DNA from: Antarctobacter sediminis
GTDB taxonomy: Bacteria; Pseudomonadota; Alphaproteobacteria; Rhodobacterales; Rhodobacteraceae
Assembly: GCF_019218285.1 (NCBI RefSeq)
Contig: NZ_JAHUZG010000001.1
Span: 992,001-1,056,000, forward strand
Direction of reading: 5' to 3'
Length of the DNA stretch: 64,000 nt
The position numbers and the translations under genes are program-made. Shown here piece after piece: positions 49,959 to 55,314 of the stretch. The notes under the pieces were generated by a model. The model was not told the origin of the DNA. It searched no databases and worked only from the letters and a program-made list of their open reading frames with translations. How positions within the stretch are numbered: position 1 is the stretch's first letter; the number at the start of each line of letters is the position of its first letter.

Positions 49959-51158
49959 ATGGCCTGGAACACCCTTGATGACATGGACCTGGAGGGCAAA
50001 CGCGTCCTCACGCGGGTCGACATCAACGTGCCGATGGAGAACGGGGAGGTGACGGACACCACCCGGATCGAACGTATCGCAGCAACCGTGCAGAACATTC
50101 TGGACAAGGGCGGCAAGCCGGTCCTTCTGGCGCATTTCGGTCGCCCCAAGGGGGAACGCCGCGAAGACATGAGCCTGCAACCGCTGATCCCCAGCCTTGA
50201 GGCGGTGCTGGGTGTCGAGGTGGTCTTTGCCGCCGATTGCGTCGGCCCGGCCGCGGCGACGGTGATCGACGGGTTGAAGGAAAATCAGGTCGCGCTGCTG
50301 GAAAACACCCGTTTCCACGCCGGTGAGGAAAAGAACGACCCCGAGCTGGTGGCGGGCATGGCCGCGCTTGGCGATGTTTTTTGTTCGGATGCCTTTTCTG
50401 CCGCGCACCGCGCGCATGCCTCGACAACCGGGCTGGCCCATGCCCTGCCGTCCTGCGCCGGTCGCCTGATGCAGGCCGAGCTTGAGGCGTTGGAAAGCGC
50501 GCTTGGCAGTCCTGCCCGCCCCGTGCTGGCCGTGGTTGGCGGCGCCAAGGTGTCGACCAAGCTGGACCTGCTGGGCAATCTTGTCGAAAAAGTCGACCTG
50601 CTGGTGATTGGCGGCGGCATGGCCAACACCTTCCTTGCGGCGCAGGGCATCGACGTGGGCAAATCGCTGGCCGAACACGAAATGACCGGCACCGCCAAGG
50701 ACATCATGGCCAAGGCCGAAGGCGCGGGGTGCAGGATCCTGCTGCCCACGGATGTGGTCGTTGCCCGGGAATTCAAGGAAGGTGCCGAGAACGAAACCGT
50801 CGCCGCCGATGCCTGCCCTGCCGACGCAATGATCCTTGATGCGGGTCCGGCCTCGGTCGAGGCCATCGTCGAGGCCATCGACGAGGCGGAAACCCTGATC
50901 TGGAACGGCCCGCTGGGTGCCTTTGAAATCGCGCCCTTCGACGCGGCCACCAATGCCGCCGCGAAACATGCCGCCGAACGCAGCGAGCTAGGCAAGCTTG
51001 TTTCGGTCGCGGGCGGCGGAGATACGGTTGCGGCGCTGAACAAGGCCGGTGCGGCCTCGGGTTTCAGCTATATCTCCACTGCCGGGGGCGCGTTCCTGGA
51101 GTGGATGGAGGGCAAAACCCTGCCCGGCGTCGCCGCGCTGGACGTGGACGCGAACTAA
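49959..51158 (+). CDS. pgk: Phosphoglycerate kinase
   Basis: 399 residues. [42 protein letters not shown] (partly quoted), [14 protein letters not shown], the hinge [17 protein letters not shown], and [33 protein letters not shown] (key GGGDT and STAGGA) are characteristic. Glycolysis/gluconeogenesis. Ends against a 10-bp-stem hairpin facing the FtsZ-like gene. Confidence 0.97.
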
Positions 51159-51168
51159 GCCATTCCCG

Positions 51169-51193
51169 CAAGCGCCCCGCTCAGGGGCGCTTG
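51169..51193. terminator. Bidirectional 10-bp-stem hairpin between pgk and the FtsZ-like gene
   Basis: CAAGCGCCCC, loop GCTCA, GGGGCGCTTG: a perfect stem 11 bases after the pgk stop and 25 bases from the convergent gene's stop. No U-tract, but the position between convergent genes favours a shared terminator. Confidence 0.7.
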
Positions 51194-51217
51194 ACGATGT
51201 TGCGATGCCCGATGCTT

Positions 51218-52834
51218 CTAGGTGCCGGTCCCGTCGGTCACGAACAACCAGACGCTGACACGGCCCTTGCCCAGATTTCGCGTGGTCGAGCCAAGATGGA
51301 CCTCGGTCTCGGGCCCAAACTGTTCGTGTATACAGGCAAGCGCCTGTTCCAGATCCGCCAGGCCAAGGTCCTGATCCCCCATAACGTTGACCAGAACCGA
51401 ACGTGCGGTCCTGCCGTTCAGCGGTTCCAGCAGGGGATTGGACAAGGCGCTTGACACCGCGTCCCGTGCGGGCTGTGCGCCCTCCGCCGTCCCGAAACCA
51501 ACCGTTGCCGTCCCCGAAAATCCAAGCAGGGCCTTGATGTCCGGAAACTCAAGGTTGACCAGCCCCGGTTGCGTCATGACGTCAGAGAACCCGGCAATGG
51601 CCCGGTAGAGCACGTCGTCGGCAATCGAGAATGCCTCGGTAAAGGTGGTGTTTTCGTTGGCCAGTCGAAACAGGTTCTGGTTCGGGATGACGATCAGCGT
51701 GTCGACCACCCTTTGCAGGCATTCGATCCCGTCTTCGGCTTGCCGCATCCGCTTGGCCCCTTCGAACTGAAAGGGTTTGGTCACCACGCCAATCGTCAGA
51801 CAGCCCAGCTCGCGCGCGGCTTGCGCGACAATGGGCGTGGCCCCCGTGCCGGTGCCGCCCCCCATGCCGGCGGTGATAAAACACATATCCACCCCGGCCA
51901 GATGATCCACGATCTGTTCGATGCTCTCTTCGGCCGCCGCCGCCCCAACAGCGGCCCGCCCTCCGGCGGCCATGCCTTCCGCAACGCGCGCGCCAAGCTG
52001 GATCCGGTTTTCGGCCCGTGATTTCGCCAGTTGCCCGGTATCCGTGTTGGCGACAACGAATTCGACACCGGCCATCGCCTTGGCGATCATGTTGTTGACG
52101 GCATTGCTGCCCGCGCCGCCAATTCCAAACACCGAGATCCGGGGCGTTTCCAGCGTCGCATGGTATCGCTGGTTCTGCTTGCGCAGCAGATGCAGGATGG
52201 CGGGCTGCACATGGGTCAGATCCCCGTCTGCCTGCCGTCCGGGTCCGCCCCCTACCTGCCCGGCCCCCAAGGGAACCGTCCGGGCCGGAAACTGCCCCAA
52301 GGGGATCGGTCGGTAAGTGACCCCGAGAGAATCGATGAATCCGCGCTTGGCAAAGCCAACCAGATCCATTCCCCACTTTTGAAAATGCCAGGGCACCATC
52401 GTCGGGTCTTGGAGCAGGGAAAGATCATCGTTCTCCGAGGTCAGCGGCCGGATTCCGACAAGGAAATCGTCCGGGGCTTCTTCGAAACGTTTCAACAACC
52501 CGTCGCTTGAGGAAACCGGCCTGTCGACGATCAGGTCGGCCCCCGAGCACAGGCCCTGCATCCGGTCAGGCGCGATCCTGTCGGCGGGAGCTTCGCCCGC
52601 TGTCAGCGTGATGCCGACATGATCGGAGGCAAACACATTCTCGGACAGCCGGGACAGCTTGCCGTCCAACGAGGCGATCTGGCCGTCCAGTTGTTCCAGC
52701 CGGTACAGCATGGCGTCATTGGCGGCATCGATTTTCCTTGCCCGCCGAAACCCCGCGACAGACCCATGCACCGCGTGCCCGCCAGAGGCGACAGTGATCC
52801 CACATGCCAGAAGATTGAGCCAGTCGGGTACCAT
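51218..52834 (-). CDS. FtsZ-like GTPase with a novel N-terminal region
   Basis: 538 residues. Residues 1-22 are weakly hydrophobic, 34-67 form a putative coiled coil (MLYRLEQLDGQIASLDGKL), 70-228 match no family I recognise, and 231-535 are a complete FtsZ fold. The nucleotide loop ISVFGIGGAGSNAVNN, the tubulin signature GGGTGTG (325-331), VVTKPFQFEGAKRMRQAE and IPNQNLFRLANENTTFTEAF are intact. The T7 catalytic loop reads NLEFPD (427-432): the second Asp is kept, the first is Glu. There is no linker or FtsA/ZipA-binding tail. This cannot be the main division FtsZ; it looks like a diverged paralogue with a new partner or membrane module. Confidence 0.9.
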   Translation of the reverse strand: MVPDWLNLLACGITVASGGHAVHGSVAGFRRARKIDAANDAMLYRLEQLDGQIASLDGKLSRLSENVFASDHVGITLTAGEAPADRIAPDRMQGLCSGADLIVDRPVSSSDGLLKRFEEAPDDFLVGIRPLTSENDDLSLLQDPTMVPWHFQKWGMDLVGFAKRGFIDSLGVTYRPIPLGQFPARTVPLGAGQVGGGPGRQADGDLTHVQPAILHLLRKQNQRYHATLETPRISVFGIGGAGSNAVNNMIAKAMAGVEFVVANTDTGQLAKSRAENRIQLGARVAEGMAAGGRAAVGAAAAEESIEQIVDHLAGVDMCFITAGMGGGTGTGATPIVAQAARELGCLTIGVVTKPFQFEGAKRMRQAEDGIECLQRVVDTLIVIPNQNLFRLANENTTFTEAFSIADDVLYRAIAGFSDVMTQPGLVNLEFPDIKALLGFSGTATVGFGTAEGAQPARDAVSSALSNPLLEPLNGRTARSVLVNVMGDQDLGLADLEQALACIHEQFGPETEVHLGSTTRNLGKGRVSVWLFVTDGTGT

Positions 52835-52977
52835 TCACATGCCTCTGCGCGCAGCCCTGATCCATGCCAAGAGCCAGGTGGAAGGCTGCGTTTGCGGTGG
52901 ACGCAGCATCGGAAAACTAGTTTGCAGCGCCATCGCCCGGAGGTCGCGGAAAGGCGCTCGTCCGGGTCAGTCCGCAG

Positions 52978-53994
52978 TTACCGGCCCAGTTCGCGTTCCA
53001 TCTTGTACAGCATCTTGATCGCTTCGGGCGCGGTCAGCGCGGTCAGATGTTTGCGCCGATCCCCTCCCGCCACATTGCTGAGGTCAACGATCCGGATCGG
53101 CAAACCCGCCAGCCGCGTCTTGTCCTGGATGGAACCAAGGCGCCATGGCTTGCCCGTCAGCCAGGCCGAAACGCTCAGCGCCGAGTCCAGCTTGGACACA
53201 AGGACGAGGAAAGGTTCGGGGAAGGGTTTGATCTTTAGCGCCTGCTGAACGAACACGTCTTCGTCGATGTCCGGGCTGATCAGCGCGACACCGCGCAGCG
53301 ACGTCAGCGATTTTTCATCCCCCGCGATCGAGGCCTGCCGCAGCGCCTCCATCGTCAGTTGCGCCCCCATGGAGTGCGCCACCAGCGTCACGCGCCATCC
53401 GCTGCCCGTCAGGTCGCGCAAGACCTCGGCCAGCCCGTCGCGCGAGAACATGACGCTGTCGCGGTCATAGACATAGCCGCGCACACGCCCCGCCGAGGCC
53501 CAAGAATACAGGACAATCGGGATCTTGGCGTCGAAATCATGCGCCACCTGCGCCACGCGATAGACGGCTTCGGCGTTGCGGACATTGAACCCATGCACAA
53601 ACAGGACCACGTCCTTGCGCCCCGGTTGCGAGGCGGCGGTCAGCCCGTTCAGAAAGGCGCGCTTGTCCTCATAAGGGGCACCGTCACGGGTAACGAAATG
53701 CCGCGAGGGATCGGGCCTAGCATTGCCGGGCCATTCGATCTCGCCCTCTTTATGGCCGGGCGGGATGGAAATATCGGCCCAGCCATAACGCAGTTCGCGC
53801 GCCCGGTCCGCGCCAAAGGTCTGCCGGACAAGGCTGAGGTCGCCCTGCGGAGCAAGGTTGCGATTGGTCGCCACAAAGACACGGCGCAGGTCGATGGCCC
53901 CGGGCGCCGCCCGTGGCACATGGTCAATCTCGCCACGCGGGGTGCAGGCAGCCACAAGGCCGCACAGCAGGACAATGAATAAGCCTCTCGTCAT
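52978..53994 (-). CDS. Lipoprotein alpha/beta hydrolase (DUF900-like), copy 1
   Basis: 338 residues, lipoprotein signal MTRGLFIVLLCGLVAAC with lipid-attachment Cys17. Hydrolase motifs: oxyanion region VLFVHGFNVRNAEAVYR, nucleophile Ser208 in LVAHSMGAQ, acid region ALISPDIDEDVF, and a late His in RRKHLTAL. Belongs to the DUF900-type serine hydrolases. It is about half identical along its length to the next gene upstream. It is followed after 143 bases by the FtsZ-like gene on the same strand. Start set by the signal peptide. Confidence 0.88.
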   Translation of the reverse strand: MTRGLFIVLLCGLVAACTPRGEIDHVPRAAPGAIDLRRVFVATNRNLAPQGDLSLVRQTFGADRARELRYGWADISIPPGHKEGEIEWPGNARPDPSRHFVTRDGAPYEDKRAFLNGLTAASQPGRKDVVLFVHGFNVRNAEAVYRVAQVAHDFDAKIPIVLYSWASAGRVRGYVYDRDSVMFSRDGLAEVLRDLTGSGWRVTLVAHSMGAQLTMEALRQASIAGDEKSLTSLRGVALISPDIDEDVFVQQALKIKPFPEPFLVLVSKLDSALSVSAWLTGKPWRLGSIQDKTRLAGLPIRIVDLSNVAGGDRRKHLTALTAPEAIKMLYKMERELGR

Positions 53995-54089
53995 GCGCGA
54001 AAAATTTACGTGGACCGCGATTCGTTTCCAGCCCCAAATGCACGAAGCCGCCCGGTCCGTGCAAGCATGCAACGTTTTGAATGGCGCAC

Positions 54090-55097
54090 TCAGGTGCCGC
54101 CCAGATCCCGCAGCAGCCGAATGGCCGCGGGCGCGGTAAAGGCGGTGGAATGACCGGCACGATCGCCGCCTTCGATATCGCTGAGATCGATGATCTCGAC
54201 CGGCAGGTTGCCCAGCCGCGAAGGATCCTGAATGGAACCCAGCCGCGAAGGTTTGCCGGTCAGGAAGGCCGCCAGACCCAGCGCCCTGTCTCGGGTCGAA
54301 ACCATGATCATGAAGGGCTGCGGAAAGGGGCTGATCCGGCGGGACTGCCGCAAAAAGACGTCTTCGTCGATGTCCGGGCTGATCAGCGCCACGCCGGACA
54401 GTTGCCGCAAGGCTCCGCCCTTGCCCGAGATCGACATCTGGCGCAGCGTTTCCATCACCAGTTGGCCACCCATGGAATGTGCCACGATCAGGATCCGCCG
54501 ACCGTCCGCCGCAAGCCCGGTCAACAACGATTCAAGATCGTCGCGGGCAAAGATCACGCTGTCGCGATCATAGACATAGCCCCGCGCATCCCCTGCCGAC
54601 GGCCACGAGAAGGAAATCACCGGTACGTCGGTTTCATAATCATGCGCGATCTGCGCCAGACGATAGACCGCTTCGGCGTTGTTAACGTTGAACCCATGCA
54701 CGAACAGCACCACGTCCTGTGCCGGACCAGCGCGCGGGATGTCCCGCAGAAAGGCATATTGGTTGGCGTACCGCTCGCCCGAGCGGGTGACGAAATGCAG
54801 CGCAGGATCGGGCGGATCGTGGCGGGGCCATTCGATCTGCCCCGGCTGGTGGACCGGCGGGATCGAGATGTCCAGTCGGCCATAACGCAGTTCTGTATCC
54901 CGCTCGGCACCAAAGCTGTGGTGCGGCAGCGCCTGCGACCCATCCCCGATCACCCGGCGGTCCGAGGCGACAAAGACCGGTTGCAAACTGGCCCCGAGGG
55001 CTGCGGGTTTGAACCCTGCGACCACGGTCACCGAGCCGCGCGGGCTGCAACCGATCAGCGCAAAACTCAGGACAAACAGGATCAGAACGCGGTTCAT
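54090..55097 (-). CDS. Lipoprotein alpha/beta hydrolase (DUF900-like), copy 2
   Basis: 335 residues with lipoprotein signal MNRVLILFVLSFALIGC (Cys17). Same architecture as the downstream copy: VLFVHGFNVNNAEAVYR, nucleophile Ser208 in IVAHSMGGQ, LISPDIDEDVF, and HSTAFTAP at the end. Lipid-anchor Cys and nucleophile Ser lie at identical residue numbers in both, which argues for tandem gene duplication. First gene of the putative three-gene unit ending with the FtsZ-like gene. Substrate unknown. Confidence 0.88.
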   Translation of the reverse strand: MNRVLILFVLSFALIGCSPRGSVTVVAGFKPAALGASLQPVFVASDRRVIGDGSQALPHHSFGAERDTELRYGRLDISIPPVHQPGQIEWPRHDPPDPALHFVTRSGERYANQYAFLRDIPRAGPAQDVVLFVHGFNVNNAEAVYRLAQIAHDYETDVPVISFSWPSAGDARGYVYDRDSVIFARDDLESLLTGLAADGRRILIVAHSMGGQLVMETLRQMSISGKGGALRQLSGVALISPDIDEDVFLRQSRRISPFPQPFMIMVSTRDRALGLAAFLTGKPSRLGSIQDPSRLGNLPVEIIDLSDIEGGDRAGHSTAFTAPAAIRLLRDLGGT

Positions 55098-55314
55098 GAG
55101 GCGCACATAGCGCCATGCGGGCCTATTGGTCGACTCCAAAGTCATTCCATCTCACGAATCCGTGCGAATCCCGGGAATTGGCATAAATGCAACGCACAAA
55201 ACCTTAATTTCATGCCGATTCGGAAACCGGCCTATCGCGGGATTCACATTGCCCCGCGGCTGTGTCAGACTCATGTCATACGCCCGCTGCAAGAGGCGTG
55301 ATCGAGGCAGATAA

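Follow-up and report, generated by a model that had tools for sequence, protein, structure and literature searches.

Antarctobacter sediminis encodes a protein in which a full-length FtsZ core follows about 230 residues that belong to no recognised family. The locus raises the question of whether such a protein builds a cytoskeleton separate from the division ring, as the original prediction proposed, or has some other part to play beside the ordinary FtsZ. We analysed the whole 64,000-nucleotide stretch of DNA that contains the gene (the window) along with the rest of the genome and with related genomes. We refer to the protein as the FtsZ fusion, and its features are listed here.

51218..52834, minus strand: FtsZ-fusion gene, 538 codons, encoding an N-terminal domain and a tail-less FtsZ core (translation, family models)
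52842..52846, minus strand: AGAGG, resembling a ribosome-binding site (RBS), 7 nt 5' of the ATG; an in-frame TGA immediately precedes the ATG (sequence, duplex energy)
52154..52834, minus strand: N-terminal region, residues 1-227, without a Pfam, NCBIfam or PHROG family and coding-like in the ftsZ frame
51605..52150, minus strand: GTP-binding half of FtsZ, residues 229-410 (alignment to the genome's own FtsZ)
51842..51862, minus strand: tubulin/FtsZ signature GGGTGTG, residues 325-331, intact (translation)
51236..51604, minus strand: GTPase-activating half of FtsZ, residues 411-533 (alignment to the genome's own FtsZ, FtsZ_C match)
51536..51565, minus strand: T7 loop GLVNLEFPDI, with Asn427 and Asp432 kept and Glu429 replacing the first Asp (translation, alignment)

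The FtsZ core and the canonical ftsZ of the genome

The family models agreed with this layout. Pfam placed a Tubulin/FtsZ GTPase domain at residues 233-392 (E 6.7e-44) and FtsZ_C at residues 441-533 (E 5.3e-16), the NCBIfam model TIGR00065 (ftsZ) matched above its cut-off (339.6 versus 295.2 bits), and the two collections together put FtsZ at residues 224-533. The FtsZ fusion therefore carries the marks of the FtsZ family (TIGR00065 or PF00091 with PF12327, GGGTGTG, FtsZ_C). It lacks three features of a division-ring FtsZ, namely the linker and C-terminal peptide, a place in the dcw cluster, and both Asp residues of the T7 loop. Since the protein stops 5 residues past the FtsZ_C match (533 of 538), the linker and the C-terminal peptide are absent, just as had been predicted. 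The NCBIfam model for the alphaproteobacterial FtsZ C-terminal extension had no match in the FtsZ fusion and gave 27.5 bits, below its cut-off of 62.95, on the canonical FtsZ of the same genome.

A membrane module had also been suggested for the N terminus. This idea was not borne out by a simple Kyte-Doolittle scan, which found no transmembrane helix (maximum 19-residue mean 1.17); an amphipathic membrane anchor may be present. For the phage tubulin PhuZ there was no whole-domain PHROG match, with weak partial matches to phrog_17961 (E 5.6e-4) and phrog_4733 (E 0.03). PADLOC had no match for the protein, and our promoter scan found none of the scanned type on the strand of the gene.

The genome (5.12 Mb, 21 contigs, 99.95% complete) contains one other match to the Tubulin family at E <= 0.001, on contig 7. 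This is the second, canonical ftsZ that the original prediction asked for (L001:430-2028). Its 532-residue product has about 15 residues ahead of the core and, behind it, a long linker followed by a C-terminal peptide; it ends in DRIEIPAFLRRQAN. The gene lies in a dcw cluster with the order murB-ddl-ftsQ-ftsA-[LysR-like, opposite strand]-ftsZ-lpxC, where the names other than FtsZ were assigned by eye from translations. The LysR-like regulator gene between ftsA and ftsZ, also recognised by eye, occupies L130:4162-5040. Both proteins have the Tubulin/FtsZ GTPase and FtsZ_C domains, but the canonical gene sits in the dcw cluster while the FtsZ-fusion gene sits between pgk and a DUF900 hydrolase gene. 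Because the canonical ftsZ is in the dcw cluster, the FtsZ fusion is an extra FtsZ, and the data support reading it as a paralogue whose N-terminal region is novel.

The N-terminal region and its relatives

Residues 1-227 gave nothing above cut-off in Pfam (best SHMT, E 0.11), NCBIfam or PHROGs. The region looks coding in the ftsZ frame by its codon statistics. GC by codon position is 0.683/0.458/0.736 in residues 1-227 and 0.662/0.476/0.752 in the remainder of the gene. We trained a codon model on 13 recognised genes from the genome. It scored the region at 0.233 per codon in frame, higher than any of 34 open stretches in wrong frames (120 codons or longer; maximum 0.182) and lower than every one of the 13 known genes (0.297-0.686). 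Within residues 181-230 the antisense frame outscores the ftsZ frame (0.304 versus 0.248). A model built on 42 window ORFs chosen for their composition separated less well, probably because its training set included antisense ORFs, and about 24 of 84 wrong-frame stretches reached the score of the N-terminal part. Codon adaptation of the N-terminal part is low (0.594, against 0.545-0.801 for the 42 window ORFs).

We considered a mis-called start, the weakness that the original prediction had itself named. The in-frame codon score above 34 of 34 controls and the RBS at the first ATG argue against it. The duplex energy at this ATG is -5.8, compared to -1.7 to -10.0 at eight adjoining ORF starts. 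Energies at the internal candidates GTG22, TTG189 and GTG209 are -5.3, -6.4 and -5.7, respectively. Given that TTG189 and GTG209 resemble the ATG in this respect, a shorter form of the protein may be made from an internal start, in addition to or instead of the 538-residue form.

Structure prediction, which had one relative to align, gave two models of low confidence (mean pLDDT 36.2 and 36.8). These two models are the evidence for the putative coiled coil of the original prediction, which they suggest around residues 29-67; they also show a possible small alpha/beta domain at about residues 95-180 and a helix at about 211-228. Foldseek with the N-terminal model found nothing in the PDB at E <= 0.001, and a PDB sequence search returned a single match at E 2.1. 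The novelty claimed for this region thus held up, with searches of sequence and structure databases giving no family and one likely relative.

The closest relative is a 273-residue protein of Thalassovita mediterranea CECT 5383 (L094:4974-5792, in the stretch L094:4869-5795), whose gene is flanked by pncA-like (nicotinamidase) and pncB-like (nicotinate phosphoribosyltransferase) genes as named by eye. The two proteins are collinear over nearly all 227 residues, with an identity of 25% (BLAST, 176 columns) to 31% (MAFFT), and they have in common the blocks GF-RAR-ID and GFA-R-----LGV. A pair test gave extreme-value p values of 2e-7 (local) and 3e-8 (semi-global), and none of 608 real ORFs scored as high. 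Over all genes of 394 genomes, the estimated expectation for such a pairing is roughly 0.05-0.3. From these alignments we consider homology likely, and borderline once the number of proteins searched is taken into account. In the Thalassovita protein, the related domain is followed by a C-terminal zinc ribbon (27.4 bits, just under the cut-off of 30.3), whereas in the FtsZ fusion it is followed by FtsZ. If the homology is right, members of one domain family are attached to FtsZ in A. sediminis and to a zinc ribbon in T. mediterranea. The FtsZ fusion also offers a starting point for work on a protein domain that has no name yet.

Further searches, in genome sets that overlap, returned few candidates. 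The N-terminal query had a match at E <= 0.1 in 36 of 394 family genomes, including its own, and the best of the others was G076 (2.1e-4). One match, in G199 (0.0014), was discarded as another frame of an ion-channel-like ORF. With the Thalassovita protein as the query, 19 of 394 genomes matched, and the A. sediminis genome came next after Thalassovita itself (1.8e-4). A profile search of 390 genomes produced three matches, these being our genome, G076 and a 58-column stretch in G265. Within Thalassovita, the profile found the gene in one of nine genomes and not in the eight others. Eight of 137 genomes of the class matched; besides our own, six did so at the zinc-ribbon end alone and the remaining one over a 44-column piece interrupted by a stop. 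A pattern search of the GTDB species collection gave 27 stretches with one relative, the same Thalassovita gene, and no relative of the domain was found in plasmids, phages or viral contigs.

The two halves of the FtsZ core and a candidate role

While aligning the core with the canonical FtsZ of the same genome, we found a split in conservation that is the main feature of this protein and was absent from the original prediction. The GTP-binding half is about 78% identical (143 of 180-183 residues) and the GTPase-activating half about 34% (42/122 to 44/128). The best single breakpoint falls after residue 410 (2dlnL 65), which by the known anatomy of FtsZ lies inside helix H7, where the two subdomains are connected. 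As a yardstick, we compared the canonical FtsZ with that of another alphaproteobacterial family (L098), where the halves share 135 of 180 and 101 of 128 residues and the best breakpoint has a 2dlnL of 7. Next to 36 canonical FtsZs from the same GTDB family (L004-L038 and L097, Thalassovita included), in which both halves are equally conserved (mean 0.95 each), the FtsZ fusion keeps 117 of 133 invariant positions in residues 229-411 and 39 of 96 in residues 412-533. The nucleotide-binding signatures had been called almost unchanged; this is true of the GTP-binding half and not of residues 412-533.

Substitution rates gave the same picture. Relative to six canonical FtsZs of the family, dN is 0.13-0.15 in the GTP-binding half and 0.63-0.67 in the activating half; relative to L098, it is 0.26 and 0.65. 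The corresponding dN/dS values are about 0.03-0.17 and 0.40-0.62, with dS at least 0.8 and partly saturated. For four pairs of canonical proteins, dN in the two halves was 0.011/0.025, 0.050/0.036, 0.200/0.156 and 0.061/0.064. The halves are also alike (0.73-0.77 and 0.73-0.79) in three rhizobial plasmid FtsZ paralogues, from Bradyrhizobium (378 aa), Rhizobium sp. Pop5 (340) and Agrobacterium (335), measured against two rhizobial FtsZs from dcw clusters. As judged by these sequence comparisons, the GTP-binding half is shown to be under strong purifying selection and the activating half to have strongly diverged. The conserved half has one weaker stretch, residues 261-290 near H2/T3, which also contacts the neighbouring subunit and has an identity of just 0.45-0.60.

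Through the alignment, we assigned S. aureus FtsZ equivalents to the key residues, which PMC8936486 names as belonging to the active site. D265 (D46), R362 (R143), N427 (N208) and D432 (D213) are kept. Q48 has become Gly267 and D210 has become Glu429, the latter being the exchange of the first T7 Asp that had been noted before. The region of helix H10 is much changed (DLGLADLEQALACIHEQFG versus DLTLFELDEAANRIREEVD).

According to the part of the literature on subunit stacking, the GTP-binding half of one FtsZ meets the T7 loop, H8, H10 and S9 of the next (PMC8936486). The same source argues, in the sections concerned, that incoming GTP-bound monomers use their top face to join the T7-exposing end of the filament, and that bottom-face mutations are toxic and top-face ones are not (PMC8936486). 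MciZ is described as capping that bottom end, and MinC is proposed by the authors to do so as well (part of PMC11938149). In the FtsZ fusion, conservation of the GTP face goes with divergence of the half onto which the next subunit docks, a pattern that suits a capping or accessory subunit of FtsZ filaments no less than a separate cytoskeleton. With its top half preserved and its bottom half altered, we infer that the protein could join a growing end and then hinder growth. We propose as the favoured explanation, at a probability of about 0.4, that the FtsZ fusion is an FtsZ-derived accessory subunit that would bind GTP, dock on the growing end of FtsZ filaments, and cap or tune them. Its conserved top face would join the exposed T7 end of ordinary filaments, and its altered bottom face would accept the next subunit poorly, so that filaments would be capped, shortened or changed in their turnover. 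The N-terminal domain, situated where canonical FtsZ has about 15 residues, would set the place or time of action, replacing the FtsA-binding tail.

Several observations count against this proposal. Asn427 and Asp432, both catalytic residues of the T7 loop, are retained though a pure cap would not need them; the divergence spans the entire activating half and goes beyond the contact surface; and conservation in the top half drops at residues 261-290. The protein is also an orphan, found in one genome, and this is the main weakness.

We weighed this accessory role against three other explanations. A free-standing cytoskeletal polymer would assemble by itself with GTP and use the N-terminal domain to link the filament to cargo or membrane. 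It would account for the retained GTP-binding half, T7 Asn427 and Asp432, and FtsZ_C match, and for the missing FtsA-binding tail; OdinFtsZ1 is described as bearing an N-terminal amphipathic tether (part of PMC12583498). Faces that meet each other in such a polymer should diverge together, yet the top half has stayed near canonical FtsZ. The S. aureus variants described in part of PMC8936486 bear on this point, with Q48A assembling at reduced GTPase activity and D210N failing to assemble, while the exchange at D210 here is to the milder Glu. No partner genes are evident, the neighbours being pgk and two DUF900 hydrolase genes that keep the same order where the fusion is missing, and hydropathy shows no transmembrane helix. 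A separate polymer, the central claim of the original prediction, is the part that we consider unlikely; the extra FtsZ copy and its novel N-terminal region stand.

Loss of function deserves slightly more weight, though we still regard it as unlikely. A stray duplicate of ftsZ, fused to a neighbouring sequence and without a role, could be open by chance or have been released from constraint recently. This would agree with the presence of the fusion in a single genome among the six of the genus, the dN/dS of 0.40-0.62 in the activating half, the absent tail, the low codon adaptation, and an N-terminal codon score below 13 of 13 known genes. It would not predict a GTP-binding half that kept 117 of 133 invariant positions at a dN/dS of about 0.03-0.17 over a long branch, nor a loss of constraint at a single domain border. 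The 538 stop-free codons, the RBS, and an N-terminal codon score higher than in all 34 wrong-frame controls also speak for a working gene. The last explanation is a regulatory subunit built into mixed FtsZ filaments, altering their bundling or shielding them from H10-binding inhibitors of the Min/MipZ type. The kept T7 Asn and Asp would allow a weak bottom contact, and the much-changed H10 is the site of MinC, SulA, MciZ and MipZ action in the part of the work that covers it (PMC11938149). An efficient bottom contact is doubtful, however, as the remaining activating half has changed too, and we find this explanation improbable.

The capping reading has a counterpart in plants. ARC3 is reportedly a chimera, going by the title of a 2004 paper by Shimada. 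The bacterial FtsZ antagonists MinC, SulA and MciZ are not FtsZs. ARC3 contains an FtsZ-like domain (part of PMC4593956). Its binding partners include both FtsZ1 and FtsZ2, and its MORN domain controls the inhibition that it exerts on ring assembly (part of PMC5855766). By these descriptions, ARC3 of plant chloroplasts resembles the FtsZ fusion in joining an FtsZ-derived domain to a foreign one beside ordinary FtsZ. Its extra domain is a C-terminal MORN, whereas that of the FtsZ fusion is N-terminal and has no MORN match in Pfam. The stronger version of our proposal, in which the protein is an independently arisen bacterial counterpart of ARC3, would make it a GTP-dependent end-cap with a remodelled activating half, its tail swapped for an N-terminal targeting domain of an unnamed family that is elsewhere joined to a zinc ribbon. 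We regard this version as rather unlikely. A natural FtsZ with one face kept and the other changed would be a ready-made tool for asking which filament end grows. It would also reveal how a ring builder can turn into a ring regulator, a step that the chimera ARC3 points to in plants.

Other known proteins share some of these features. The short accessory FtsZs of rhizobia (Rhizobium sp. Pop5 WP_008532632.1, 340 aa; Agrobacterium fabrum plasmid WP_306019442.1, 335 aa) also lie outside dcw and have no long linker, and in A. tumefaciens one of three FtsZs has the linker and C-terminal peptide (part of PMC13170164). The rhizobial proteins consist of the core alone with equally conserved halves, whereas the FtsZ fusion has an N-terminal region of about 228 residues and halves at 0.78 and 0.34. 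It is set apart from them by its N-terminal domain and its one-sided conservation. FtsZl1 and FtsZl2 likewise combine an FtsZ-like GTPase domain with extra regions, but these are C-terminal (with an N-terminal kinase in four planctomycete members) and the cores are far more diverged, as far as the relevant part of PMC2875224 describes them. The N-terminal region of FtsZ is given as a few to about 200 residues, and 20 to over 80 in cyanobacterial division FtsZ (part of PMC6175996). The cyanobacterial peptide and the amphipathic helix of OdinFtsZ1 are N-terminal additions to FtsZ with a function (parts of PMC6175996 and PMC12583498). The cyanobacterial extensions so described are on the division FtsZ, and these parts of the two papers mention no domain of about 228 residues on a tail-less second copy. 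Among the titles and opening abstract lines listed by our searches of the open-access literature, none reports a bacterial FtsZ with such an N-terminal domain.

Distribution and origin of the locus

The original prediction had called for a survey of Rhodobacterales for the same fusion. The FtsZ fusion is not a family found throughout the order: within its genus, its own genome is the single carrier out of six, and among the matches listed (198 genomes) the N-terminal part and the core occur together in its own genome alone. Matches starting at residues 181-210 were rejected as short upstream extensions, four of which run through stop codons. The extra matches in seven multi-match genomes (L119-L128 read) were set aside as parts of canonical ftsZ, splits at contig ends or frameshifts, or another organism; one match (G129:C57, 29% over residues 168-263) lies outside the pieces read. 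A second, partial canonical ftsZ lies beside the existing one at the end of contig 164 in G087 (L127) and on contig 178 in G022 (L128), likely reflecting strain mixture or contamination in draft genomes.

The core matched 116 of 72,556 plasmid records and 24 of 50,697 phage records, none of them at 60% identity or more, and it matched no viral contigs. Of six plasmid records that we opened, three (L113, L114, L117) were dcw clusters. Core identity among the matches listed is 56-65% to family members and 49-57% to other Alphaproteobacteria, ranges that touch. In a protein tree of the GTP-binding half, the FtsZ fusion groups with the family (100/98; two outgroups, midpoint root) on a branch of 1.09, without a resolved place inside it. 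The DNA of this half is 76% identical to the canonical ftsZ of the same genome, below many family members (up to 79%; 78% for G202 of the genus). With identities up to 79% in several members and this tree, no donor can be named. A recent copy of, or gene conversion from, the genome's own ftsZ is not supported, since fourfold-site identity of the GTP-binding half to that gene is 0.43. The same measure is 0.51-0.55 for the ftsZ of three congeners and 0.35 and 0.42 for two other family members; the higher values of the congeners may point to a source close to the genus.

Two further features describe the site.

51159..52977, no strand: interval from the pgk stop to the DUF900 hydrolase stop, 1819 bp (comparison with congeners)
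51170..51192, no strand: palindrome AAGCGCCCC-TGAGC-GGGGCGCTT between the FtsZ-fusion gene and the convergent pgk (read from the sequence, not flagged by the scan)

The DUF900 hydrolase gene and pgk adjoin each other in all five other genomes of the genus, where the same stop-to-stop interval, read from the printed flanks, is an empty site of about 21-24 bases. Because the flanking genes adjoin in 5/5 congeners, the roughly 1.8 kb containing the FtsZ fusion was most likely gained here. Its GC content (0.61-0.66) is the same as that of the surroundings, and no transposase or integrase was recognised among the neighbouring ORFs.

The palindrome forms a stem that resembles a terminator but lacks a T run. 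Two genes for DUF900 alpha/beta hydrolases stand in tandem at 52978-55145 (minus strand), and both are also beside pgk in the five congeners. At the edges of the insert is a 14-nt inverted repeat with 12 of 14 positions matching (51148-51161 and 52983-52996). The repeat may be due to chance, given that relatives have ordinary DUF900 coding sequence similar to its right arm. The pgk product ends in ALDVDAN here (51142-51158) and the pgk ends of the congeners differ, which suggests that the insertion edge altered the last pgk codons.
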